13,466 nucleotides of DNA from NCBI GenBank assembly GCA_003697085.1, contig RFFU01000041.1:1-13466 (forward strand), given 5' to 3'. This DNA comes from Candidatus Hydrogenedentota bacterium. GTDB taxonomy: Bacteria; UBA8481; J006. Shown here in pieces: positions 1,787-13,347 of the stretch. The position numbers and the translations under genes were made by a program. Positions within the stretch are counted from its first letter, which is position 1. Every line of letters starts with the position of its first letter. Under the pieces are notes generated by a model, which was not told the origin of the DNA, did not search any database, and saw nothing but the letters and a program-made list of their open reading frames with translations.

Positions 1787-1844
1787 GAAAGGTGGATCGG
1801 CCGTCCGCAGACTGGAGAGTCCGCGCTCCACATCTCATGTTCCA

Positions 1845-1935
1845 TTTTGCCTTTTTCCTTTTGCTTTTTCCCTTCTCCCTTCTCCCTTTTGCCTTTTTCC
1901 TTTTGCCTTTTCCCCTCTCCCTTCTTCCTTTTGCC
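1845..1935. repeat. degenerate polypyrimidine/polypurine repeat tract
   Basis: About 90 bases are almost purely C and T on the plus strand, built from iterations around CCTTTTGCC and CCCTTCT. A 20-base string occurs exactly twice, at 1845-1864 and 1887-1906, and a partial copy ends at 1935. Such tracts are prone to slippage and can form triplex DNA. The complementary strand has three evenly spaced GGG runs. Together with the two hairpin repeats at 1723-1786 it fills the gap between cmk and the plus-strand glycosyltransferase gene (1527-1998). I see no gene in that gap. Confidence 0.75.
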
Positions 1936-1959
1936 ATCTTCGTCTTTTCTTCGTATTCT
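1931..1959 (+). promoter_or_regulatory. candidate promoter for the GT-C gene
   Basis: TTGCCA (1931-1936), a 17-base spacer, then TATTCT (1954-1959). Matches to consensus are 5/6 and 4/6. The -35 element lies in the last copy of the CCTTTTGCC repeat, so the polypyrimidine tract may have supplied part of the promoter. Predicted transcription start is near 1966. Confidence 0.45.
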
Positions 1960-1998
1960 AGCCCTCAAATCGATGTCCTCGATAGTCTCACACGCGTT

Positions 1999-3468
1999 AT
2001 GACCAAGATACGTTCGTTCAAACGGCAGAACGACGTCCCGGGCTCCGAGAGACCAGGGTGCGGCCAAGGCCGCGGGGGGGAAAAGTTGAAGAAGAGCGAG
2101 TTCGCCTTCGGTGCGTTTCTGTTCCTTGCCCCATTGCTGATCCTGCCGCTCATTTTTCCCGGAATCCACTCGCGAAGAATCGTCGAAGCCCACAATATCG
2201 ACGAATGCCAAATGGTGAAGGTCATGGACCGAATGGCGGAGGGCGAATGGCTCGATCCGGACCATTTCTACAACTACGGCCCTCTCTTTTATTACGCAGC
2301 CCGGTTTCTCGAACGCGCCGCCGGGATGCGGGACACCTTCACGTCACACATCGCCGCTCTGCGGGTAACGAGCTACCTCTCTTTTCTTTTTCTGTTGGCG
2401 GTTTTATGCTTCTTCTTTCGCAAGCAACCCGTATCCACCAGAACTCTCCTCGCCACATCCCTTCTCCTCCTCTCCCCCGTTCAACGGTACGCCGTTCAAG
2501 CCCATCCGGACCTCCTTCAGCTGGCTCTTCTCTTCCTTGCCTTCTTCTCGGCACCCAGCCATCCTTCCCTTTCCGCCGCCCTCCTGGCTCTGGCGGCCTC
2601 GACGAAACTGGCGGGTTTCGTCATTCTCCCCGCTCTGTTTCTCTTTCCTCCGCGCGCGGCGAAGATTTGCGAGAGAATCCGCTGGTTTCTCGTCTTCGTC
2701 GCGGTTCTTCTCGTGTCCCAACCCCGTCTGATCGTCGCTCCGCTCCAGACGATCGAAACCATCCGGCGACACGCGGAATATACCTTCTCGCCGCTCCAGG
2801 GAATCGGCTCGCCGTGGCTCATTTGGCCCCTTCTTCTTTTTCACTACGACGGCCTCGGCGCCGTTATTCCCTTCCTCGGCTTCTTCGGAATGGCAACCGC
2901 AACCTTCACGGAATCCTCACGATCGGAAGAAATCCCTTCCTGCGGCAACCGGAATCGACTGATTGCGCGTTTCGGCCTCGCTTGGTGCGGCATTTTCGGC
3001 GGATTTCTTCTTCTTGTCGCCAAAGGGGACTACGGTGTCCGCCATCTTCTGCCCCTTCTCCCTCCTCTGTTCTGGGGGGCGGCTCAGGTCCTGCAGCGTA
3101 CGGGGAAAAAGATAATCCCGCTCCTCCTCCTCTTTCTCTTCGCCTTCCAGGGACCGGCCGCGTTGGAGAACCTTCGTGATATCGCCGCTTCGGGAACGAT
3201 CCCGAAGGAAGACGTTGAGGCGGCAAAGGATATCCCCGACAACGCCGTCGTGGCCGCGCAATACCTCATCTATGTCCCCGAACGGATTCTTCACGTTGAC
3301 CGTTTCAACATCCACCTTCCGGCCGGAAATTACGACTTCGTTCTCCGTAAATCCGGAAAGATTCCCGTCCTTCGGGACCTTCTTCTGGAAAAAGGATACC
3401 GCCCGGTCAAAACCGTCGGCCGCGTCGAGGTTTGGAGCCGCGAGCCGTTCCCTCGTTCGAGGAACTAA
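1999..3468 (+). CDS. GT-C/PMT-family (GT39/GT83-like) membrane glycosyltransferase
   Basis: Multi-pass membrane protein, probably transferring a sugar from a polyprenyl-phosphate donor to lipid, glycan or protein at the outer face of the cytoplasmic membrane. From the ATG at 1999 it has 489 residues. The first membrane segment (about 36-54) is followed by a loop with the acidic pair D68-E69, the usual GT-C catalytic position, then YNYGPLFYY (91-99). Several further hydrophobic segments run to about residue 390, and a soluble C-terminal tail of about 100 residues follows. The frame is open back to GTG 1792, but that part translates the polypyrimidine repeat into a Phe/Leu-rich string and is very likely not coding. 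TTG at 2086, preceded by a G run, is a good alternative start. The gene is convergent with aroA (stop codons overlap) and sits inside an otherwise minus-strand aro-cmk order. Substrate unknown. Confidence 0.75.
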   Translation: MTKIRSFKRQNDVPGSERPGCGQGRGGEKLKKSEFAFGAFLFLAPLLILPLIFPGIHSRRIVEAHNIDECQMVKVMDRMAEGEWLDPDHFYNYGPLFYYAARFLERAAGMRDTFTSHIAALRVTSYLSFLFLLAVLCFFFRKQPVSTRTLLATSLLLLSPVQRYAVQAHPDLLQLALLFLAFFSAPSHPSLSAALLALAASTKLAGFVILPALFLFPPRAAKICERIRWFLVFVAVLLVSQPRLIVAPLQTIETIRRHAEYTFSPLQGIGSPWLIWPLLLFHYDGLGAVIPFLGFFGMATATFTESSRSEEIPSCGNRNRLIARFGLAWCGIFGGFLLLVAKGDYGVRHLLPLLPPLFWGAAQVLQRTGKKIIPLLLLFLFAFQGPAALENLRDIAASGTIPKEDVEAAKDIPDNAVVAAQYLIYVPERILHVDRFNIHLPAGNYDFVLRKSGKIPVLRDLLLEKGYRPVKTVGRVEVWSREPFPRSRN

Positions 3469-8414: not shown

Positions 8415-9761
8415 TCAATCCATTCGTTCAATCACGGCCTTGCCGAAACCGGAACACGAAACCTTCGTCACGTCTTGCCGCCCCTCGGCCTTCATCAAAC
8501 GCTCGAGATCATACGTCACGTGCCCGTCGCGGATCGCCCGTTCGATTCCCCTGACGATCAGCGCCGAGGCTTCCTTCCAGCCGATATGGTCGAGCATCAT
8601 AACGGAGGAGAGGAGGAGCGAGCCGGGATTGACCTTGTCCTGGCCGGTGTATTTCGGAGCGGTACCGTGCGTCGCCTCGAAGATGGCGCACTCCTCCCCG
8701 ATATTCGCTCCGGGCCCCAGACCGAGACCTCCCACCAGCGCGATCGCGGCGTCGGAAAGATAGTCACCGTTAAGATTCGGGACCGCAAGAACACTGTACT
8801 CCGCCGGACGCGTCTGAATCTGCTGAAAGATCGAGTCCGCGATGCGGTCCTTGATCAGAATCTTTCCTTCCGGCATCGTCCCGTTATGCTCGCTCCACAA
8901 CTCCTTCTCCGTAACGAAATGCTCACGAAATTCCTCTACGGCCACCTCGTATCCCCATTTGCAGAAACTGCCTTCCGTAAACTTCATGATATTGCCCTTG
9001 TGCACGAGCGTCACCGAAGGGAGGTTGTTCTGAATCGCCCACCGGATCGCGGATCGCACCAAACGCTTCGTACCCGTGACGGAAATCGGCTTGATCCCGA
9101 TCCCGGAATCCGGCCGGATCTGCCGCCCCGTCTTCTCCTTGATTAGATCTATCACGGCCGTCGCCACCTCGGACCCCTTCTCGAAATCATACCCCGCGTA
9201 AACATCCTCGGTGTTCTCGCGAAAGATCACGAAATTGACCTTCTCGGCGTATTTGTTCGGAGCCGGTACCCCCTGGAAATATCGCACCGGTCGAACGCAA
9301 GCAAAGAGATCCAACGCCTGGCGGAGCCGAACGTTGATCGACCGGAACCGCTCCGTTACGCCGTCCTCCTTGCCGCAATTGTCGCAGGGAGCGGGATGGT
9401 TCTGCTGGTGGGCGCAGTGAAGACAGACATGTGTTTCCTCGCCGATCGGTGTCGTGAATGGTCCCTTGATCGCGACCTTTACGTATCGAATCGCTTCCAA
9501 GGCCTCGTCGGGAAACTCCGTACCGTACCGTTGGAGCCCCTCGAGCCCGACGTAGATCGGACACCAGGCAATCTCCCTCTTCCCTCCGTACGCCTTTTCG
9601 ACGGCGGCACCGACGACATCCTTCATCACCGGCGTGATGTCCAATCCGATCCCGTCGCCGCGCATCAACCCGATGATCGGCCGGTCGCCGACTTGCGGCC
9701 TGCCGTCCTTCACCTCGATCCGATCCCCTTCCGGAACATTCACGTGCTTGAACTGCGGCAT
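8415..9761 (-). CDS. icd: isocitrate dehydrogenase [NADP+] with a four-cysteine insertion
   Basis: Oxidises isocitrate to 2-oxoglutarate in the citric acid cycle. The 448-residue product aligns with the E. coli type throughout: [10 protein letters not shown] (35-44), FTTPIG (102-107), [10 protein letters not shown] with substrate-binding S141 (139-148), [27 protein letters not shown] (181-190), and [20 protein letters not shown] near the C-terminus. Lys-Tyr of APKY and the later TYDLERLM retain residues associated with NADP+ preference. Unusual: between TTPIG and FRS there are 33 residues where E. coli has 4 before the equivalent serine. The insert contains C113-x2-C116-x9-C126-x2-C129 plus several histidines, suggesting a small zinc-ribbon or knuckle. 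GGAGG lies 7 bases before ATG 9761. It follows the DUF6922-like gene by 79 bases and precedes tyrS. Confidence 0.95.
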
Positions 9762-9840: not shown

Positions 9841-10140
9841 TTACAGAATCACCAACTGGTCGGTCGCGGCCGGCGGGGAAGGCCGTAAAACGAGTTTAAA
9901 GAAGCGCCGCGTGCGTTCCGATACTCTTCGCGATCTCAGTATCACCTCTAAAAACTCGTCGCGGCCATAGTATTCCACCAAAACCCGGATTTCCTTCGTT
10001 CCTCCCGCCCCGCCCAACCTTTCCATTATGAGGTTCCGATGACGTTCCGGATCGATGCGCGAAAGATCGCCGTATTCAGGAAAAAGGTGCCGGTTCTCTC
10101 GCAGCAACTCTTCAATCCGCTCTCGTCCAATTTCACCCAT
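9841..10140 (-). CDS. DUF6922-like small protein (antitoxin-associated domain)
   Basis: A 99-residue protein, function not established. Residues about 12-86 (LLRENRHLFPEY... through VEYYGRDEFLEVILRSRRVSERTRRFFKLVL) resemble the short domain of the DUF6922 type: an HLF opening, an IDPERHRN acidic/basic stretch, the IRVLVEYYG helix and an SRRVSERTRRFF end. From memory such proteins are often encoded beside AbiEii-type nucleotidyltransferase toxins, but no such gene is next to this one. I chose ATG 10140, preceded by AGAGGG about 6 bases upstream; the frame runs open to 10437 but that part crosses palindromic intergenic DNA. It is the first gene of the minus-strand run leading into icd. Family assignment is from pattern memory and should be treated as tentative. 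Confidence 0.65.
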   Translation of the reverse strand: MGEIGRERIEELLRENRHLFPEYGDLSRIDPERHRNLIMERLGGAGGTKEIRVLVEYYGRDEFLEVILRSRRVSERTRRFFKLVLRPSPPAATDQLVIL

Positions 10141-10459: not shown

Positions 10460-11500
10460 ATGGAATGTACGACGACACGGCTTGGAGAGGCGCAGGTTCT
10501 CAAAGTTCGCGGAACGATCGATGCCAATACCATCAACGAGGCTCGGGCTTATGTCCAGCCCCTTCTCGACAACGGGCTCACCGTTATCGATCTTTCCCAG
10601 GTCGATTTCATCGATTCGAGCGGGCTGGGGATGCTCGTGGCGTTCGCGAAGAAACCCTTCAATCGCGGGCTCTTTCGGATCGCCGCGCCGCAGCCTCCCG
10701 TCGAGAAGATCATCCGCCTCGCTCGCCTCGACCGCATCCTCGATCTCTACTCCGGAGTCAATGAGGCCGTGCTCGAACCCGCACCGCGCCGGATCACCGT
10801 CATCGAGCCGGACGAGGCGACGCGCAGCATTATCGAGGCGATGCTGGAATCGTATGAGTACAATGTTCGTGCCGTCGGGCAGATTGCCGAAGCCGGACAG
10901 ACACAACCTCACCTGATCATCGCCGGCGAATTGCCGCCTTCTGAATTGAGCGCGTGGAGGGAAACGGTCGGTAATCCCCCGATTCTTCACTTGGGACCGG
11001 AGGAAGAGATTCAGTCTCTGAGACAATTGGGACTCGACGCGACCGTCGAGGAGGCCGGCCTCGCCAAACCCTTCGATCCCTATGATCTGCTCGGCCAGGT
11101 CCGCCTGCTTCTCCACGACAAGGTCGGTCACGGTGCCGCGCTTCTCTGCTGCCTTGGAGATCGCGAGGTTGCCGAAACGGTCCAGTTCGTTTTGGAGCGG
11201 CACGGATACAGACCGCTCTTCGCCGCAACCTACGGCGCCTTCGTCAAGAAACTCGAAGAAGGAATCGTCTTCCAGGCCTTTTTGATCTCACACAAACCCG
11301 TCGGCGGAAATTTCGATGCGCTTTTGGGAGAGATTCGCTCCAACCAGGACTACGCTAAAACCCCCGTGATCGCTGTCGGTCCCTTGACGCAGCAGGAGGT
11401 CATCGCCTATGTGAAGATGGGAGCGCAGGATGTTCTGGCGGTCCCCATCGTTCCCGAATCCTTACTCGGAAAACTCGCTCACCATATCAAACGCTATTGA
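10460..11500 (+). CDS. STAS-domain protein with two degenerate receiver domains
   Basis: 346 residues in three domains. Residues 1 to about 105 form a STAS domain like anti-sigma factor antagonists: LKVRGTIDANTI (14-25) and VDFIDSSGLGML (48-59), with S53/S54 at the position phosphorylated in SpoIIAA-type proteins. Residues about 111-219 form a receiver fold with acidic E116, D118 and E119 and the switch lysine K203. The acceptor aspartate is replaced by G156 (LIIAGEL). Residues about 225-346 form a second receiver fold with S277 in place of the aspartate (AFLISHK) and V328 in place of the lysine. Neither receiver is therefore likely to be phosphorylated. It is probably a cytosolic signalling adaptor in a partner-switching pathway; no kinase or sigma factor lies nearby. 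The start is ATG 10460 without a Shine-Dalgarno. The stop overlaps the start of the following membrane gene. Confidence 0.85.
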   Translation: MECTTTRLGEAQVLKVRGTIDANTINEARAYVQPLLDNGLTVIDLSQVDFIDSSGLGMLVAFAKKPFNRGLFRIAAPQPPVEKIIRLARLDRILDLYSGVNEAVLEPAPRRITVIEPDEATRSIIEAMLESYEYNVRAVGQIAEAGQTQPHLIIAGELPPSELSAWRETVGNPPILHLGPEEEIQSLRQLGLDATVEEAGLAKPFDPYDLLGQVRLLLHDKVGHGAALLCCLGDREVAETVQFVLERHGYRPLFAATYGAFVKKLEEGIVFQAFLISHKPVGGNFDALLGEIRSNQDYAKTPVIAVGPLTQQEVIAYVKMGAQDVLAVPIVPESLLGKLAHHIKRY

Positions 11501-13300: not shown

Positions 13301-13347
13301 GGGATTCCTCGTCGGCGTCGCTTCGCTCCACCTCGCTCGGAATGACA
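13301..13347 (-). repeat. nested-hairpin repeat, copy 3 (inverted)
   Basis: Reads TGTCATTCCGA ... GAGGAATCCCC on the minus strand, opposite to its neighbours. The outer ATTCC/GGAAT arms are kept. The centre contains the GCGAAGCGA type sequence common in this repeat class. Confidence 0.7.

Follow-up and report, generated by a model that had tools for sequence, protein, structure and literature searches.

The icd gene of the window, that is, of the whole 13,466-nucleotide stretch analysed, codes for an NADP-type isocitrate dehydrogenase that is catalytically complete as judged by its residues, and whose phosphorylation loop carries an insert (residues 108-138) that is very probably a metal-binding Cys4 ribbon. 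That this ribbon is structural, holds one zinc, orders the lid of the active site and docks on the large domain is, taken as a whole, the reading we favour, with distinctly less assurance than metal binding as such. The enzyme is a variant of a known one, apparently undescribed in the literature and solved structures searched: none of the solved isocitrate dehydrogenases found in the PDB has the insert, and a search conducted largely outside subscription papers found no published description of a zinc or cysteine insert in these enzymes. Among textbook examples of an enzyme controlled through a single active-site loop is isocitrate dehydrogenase; a conserved mini-domain that probably binds metal, placed in that very loop in several poorly known phyla, offers a natural experiment in which to see how parts of a lid tune or regulate an enzyme of central metabolism. 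The features are located in Table 1.

Table 1. Positions in the window of icd and of the features discussed in the text
Feature	Coordinates	Strand	Basis
icd, NADP-type isocitrate dehydrogenase, 448 aa	8415..9761	-	Translation; alignment with PDB isocitrate dehydrogenases; TIGR00183
Insert in the phosphorylation/lid loop (residues 108-138), predicted to be a Cys4 zinc ribbon	9348..9440	-	25 genomes; AlphaFold2
First knuckle, C113-L-H-C116	9414..9425	-	Translation; Cys invariant in 25/25
Second knuckle, C126-D-N-C129	9375..9386	-	Translation; Cys invariant in 25/25, as is G130, which comes next
S141, counterpart of E. coli S113 (binds isocitrate; phosphorylated by AceK)	9339..9341	-	Alignment
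L73 (Glu in every insert-less Icd of the comparison), which may help to dock the insert	9543..9545	-	Sequence comparison

Read from 9761 to 8415, the frame is intact. The product scores 567.8 bits against the NCBIfam model of prokaryotic NADP-dependent isocitrate dehydrogenases, TIGR00183, just over the cut-off of 567.3, and in structural alignments is 44-57% identical to the solved bacterial and archaeal enzymes of subfamily I. The full set of isocitrate-, metal- and NADP 2'-phosphate-binding residues is kept, with the ligands S141, N143, R147, R157, R181, Y188, K255, D309, D333 and D337 in place and K370, Y371, Y417 and R421 present as in the NADP enzymes. The original prediction, which described the enzyme outside the insert as canonical and its frame as intact, was right in both respects. 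Only two proteins of the genome match PF00180, and since the other is a clear LeuB, icd is probably the sole isocitrate dehydrogenase of the PF00180 kind, to which the monomeric type is unrelated. At 8415-8431 the gene overlaps the start of tyrS, listed as TTG. It is the first of a run in which, after tyrS, come the aromatic amino acid genes of DAHP synthase, prephenate dehydrogenase and AroA, as well as cmk. Directly upstream of icd, on the same minus strand (9844-10140), lies the gene of a small DUF6922 (PF21956) protein, and divergent from icd, on the plus strand (10460-11500), that of a protein with a STAS domain, whose C-terminal part weakly resembles a receiver domain.

The phosphorylation loop corresponds to T105-S113 of E. 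coli and varies between subfamilies (PMC3521221). In the alignment the 31 residues of the insert stand where E. coli Icd has only two, between its G108 and I111, a net gain of 29, which agrees with the roughly 29 extra residues first estimated; the span then given, 9351-9440, was correct to one codon. Other subfamily I enzymes, such as E. coli Icd and those of A. fulgidus (2iv0) and A. pernix (1tyo), share the fold and the catalytic and NADP-binding residues, but have nine residues from threonine to serine and Glu at position 73, whereas the window enzyme has 38 (T104-S141), including the Cys4 ribbon, and Leu. The translation bears out the cysteines at 113, 116, 126 and 129 and the histidines at 111, 115, 118 and 122, as well as the location of the insert directly before the isocitrate-binding serine. 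The motif is hardly accidental: when the protein was shuffled 20,000 times, CxxC-x5..20-CxxC arose in just 6 cases. Assembly error, already discounted on inspection of the frame, is excluded because the insert recurs with all four cysteines in 24 other genomes, in two of which the contig concerned is long (5.5 and 4.8 Mb).

The spread of the insert, for which a search of Icd families had been proposed, was followed in two ways. A scan for near relatives over the genomes of 84,980 species retained 80 loci, five with the insert and 75 without it. A profile of the insert detected 7 bearers (the window's own genome included) in a sample of 290 genomes from across the domain, and found the insert in 3/7, 2/4, 1/5 and 1/2 genomes of four small phyla, in 10/124 of the phylum that comprises the Cloacimonadota metagenome-assembled genomes (MAGs), and in 5/395 of a large phylum that includes L006, a genome with the label Gemmatimonadales, MAG names being used as deposited. 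In total, 25 genomes bear it, the window's included, and they represent at least seven groups of phylum level. The window's phylum is represented in the collection by two genomes, and the Icd of the other has no insert.

The 25 sequences fall into two clades. Clade A, 14 sequences with that of the window, has the spacing C-x2-C-x9-C-x2-C, and clade B, 11 sequences from Cloacimonadota and genome G246, has x14 between the cysteine pairs. C113, C116, C126 and C129 are invariant in all 25, so that no insert homologue devoid of cysteines, the case named at the outset as contrary to a metal site, was found. V112, L114, Q120 and G130 are likewise invariant, and A117 and R138 almost invariant. Within each clade, conservation of the insert is close to that of the remainder of the enzyme (77 vs 77% in one and 80 vs 82% in the other). 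The histidines behave otherwise: H115 and H122 vary inside clade A and all four are lost in clade B. Hence, of the original proposal of a metal-binding knuckle, the cysteine site gains from the invariance of the cysteines, the confident compact model and the zinc-ribbon-like matches described below, and the participation of histidines is discarded as they are not conserved.

Trees built without the insert columns place the two clades apart, each well supported (100/100 for A and 95/98 for B), and join them in only 4% of the bootstrap trees; constraining both as one clade gave trees that were not worse (AU p of 0.65 and 0.50). The inserts themselves coincide at 10 of 26 non-Cys positions, a figure reached in none of 20,000 permutations, and on that account are very likely homologous. 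Two independent origins are thus not favoured, one clade being unrejected and those residues being shared, and comparison of the sequences points to a likely common origin. The insert may have reached its present distribution by descent with losses or by transfer.

AlphaFold2, run on the window Icd with 47 sequences, gave a whole-enzyme model with a mean pLDDT of 91.9, the blocks over residues 101-140 averaging 90-94. In it the insert (pLDDT of about 93) is predicted to adopt a compact, small three-strand fold, with strands at 111-113 and 135-137. Modelled alone with six sequences it kept the topology, with a pLDDT of 83-85 in the core. In structure searches the whole chain matched solved isocitrate dehydrogenases, which have no insert, and the isolated insert found mostly zinc-ribbon or rubredoxin-like neighbours (Nob1, LapB, MCM, eL40 and RNA polymerase subunit L), with RING and other zinc folds further down the list. 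RNA polymerase subunit L (RPB12) gave the best superposition, with an rmsd of 1.4-1.5 Å over 33-35 residues. These matches are individually weak and not significant (Foldseek E above 1, VIA Z of at most 3.7). The sequence profile of the insert weakly matched eL40 and RPB12 across both knuckles, and Pfam searches with the insert alone gave zinc-finger matches, all sub-threshold; the multi-zinc-finger proteins that topped the profile list owe their place to repeated short CxxC pieces and are not relatives. Domains of the eL40, RPB12 and LapB type resemble the insert, as it is modelled, in having two CxxC knuckles and three short strands, but they are small proteins or separate domains rather than part of an active-site loop, and the likeness stays below significance. 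From the fold class and the confidence of the model we infer that the four sulphurs converge.

Cys4 zinc ribbons are usually structural, and we propose a zinc-stapled lid. On this proposal, the insert would be a Cys4 zinc ribbon of three short strands and two CxxC knuckles around one structural zinc, set midway in the phosphorylation loop of an NADP-isocitrate dehydrogenase that belongs to subfamily I; zinc as the metal, like the role, is inferred. The ribbon would pack on the large domain near residues 73-76, a contact suggested by correlation only, and would hold the loop with T104 and with S141 and N143, residues that bind isocitrate and border the nicotinamide site, ordered and able to close. 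A lid stapled in this manner, in place of the short flexible loop of other isocitrate dehydrogenases, would tune stability and the binding of substrate and cofactor, and should keep an AceK-type kinase from reaching the serine. An analogy of operation, from an unrelated enzyme, is offered by the adenylate kinases of Gram-positive bacteria, which carry a Cys4 structural zinc in the LID, a closing lid. A structural role is more economical than the loop control, redox or zinc sensing, or dimer stabilisation originally suggested. In solved isocitrate dehydrogenases the phosphorylation loop touches NADP+ at its nicotinamide part, and in one apo form this loop is disordered (PMC6313988). The subfamily II enzymes enlarge the same loop, which is said to hinder phosphorylation by the kinase (PMC3521221); theirs, in a subfamily other than that of the window Icd, has 18 residues with a helix and no Cys4 ribbon.

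Outside the insert, position 73 is Leu in 25/25 insert-bearing and Glu in 76/76 insert-less Icds, and L76, L348 and T372 also differ together with the presence of the insert. Position 73 and its partners look as a docking surface for the insert would, which makes such a surface possible; a shared ancestor would equally give linked residues at 73, 76, 348 and 372, and if clades A and B are one, the linkage represents a single event. The Cys4 insert together with Leu at position 73 provides a signature by which these enzymes can be recognized.

The position of the insert immediately before the serine that AceK phosphorylates in E. coli raises the question of control. The ribbon could be a lid switch responsive to redox state or zinc, in which, under stress, oxidation of the cysteines or loss of zinc unfolds it, misplaces S141 and N143 and turns the enzyme off; as a protein-intrinsic alternative to AceK it would gate the flow of carbon to 2-oxoglutarate in several uncultured phyla. 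AceK (PF06315) was found in none of the 25 insert-bearing genomes, among them that of the window, which is 94.6% complete. The only genome of the set that has it, G298, is without the insert, although three insert bearers fall in its family. However, AceK is rare in any case (1 of 12 insert-less genomes and 1 of 14 controls), too rare to tell whether its loss could be the cause of the insert. Isocitrate lyase, the enzyme that calls for control of this kind, is encoded by 3 of the 25 insert-bearing as compared with 5 of the 12 insert-less genomes. Taken with the lack of AceK in all 25, this makes kinase control of the glyoxylate branch point an unlikely reason for the insert. Since ribbons of this class also tend to be structural, we regard the switch as improbable, though not negligible.

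A slightly less probable alternative is that the ribbon serves to dock a partner, for instance a neighbouring enzyme of the tricarboxylic acid (TCA) cycle, for channelling or regulation. In clade A the residues E108, E109, T110, H111, V112, L114, H118, Q119 and Q120 are identical in 14/14 sequences, a conservation beyond the cysteines that a binding surface would explain, but these residues could also touch the enzyme itself. In Cloacimonadota the insert-bearing icd follows the genes of citrate synthase and aconitase and precedes that of a TPR protein (locus L126, 1010-6659; also L010 and L123-L125), an order from which the insert-bearing Icd appears to perform the ordinary oxidative step of the cycle and which would suit docking; against this, no icd neighbour shared within clade A was found. 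An iron site of the rubredoxin type, which would transfer electrons or sense oxygen at the active site, is brought to mind by the LapB domains among the best fold matches, but the knuckles CLHCA and CDNCG depart from the CPxCG of rubredoxin and the reaction requires no external electron carrier, so we give it very little credence.

Apart from icd, the window contains a T/C-rich tandem array with periods of 14 and 42 nucleotides (1840-1935) at the start of a plus-strand membrane-protein open reading frame (1792-3468), whose true start probably lies downstream. Three diverged copies of a 44-nucleotide GC-rich element lie near the contig end (13158-13431), and a short repeat pairs positions 1762-1784 with 13325-13347.
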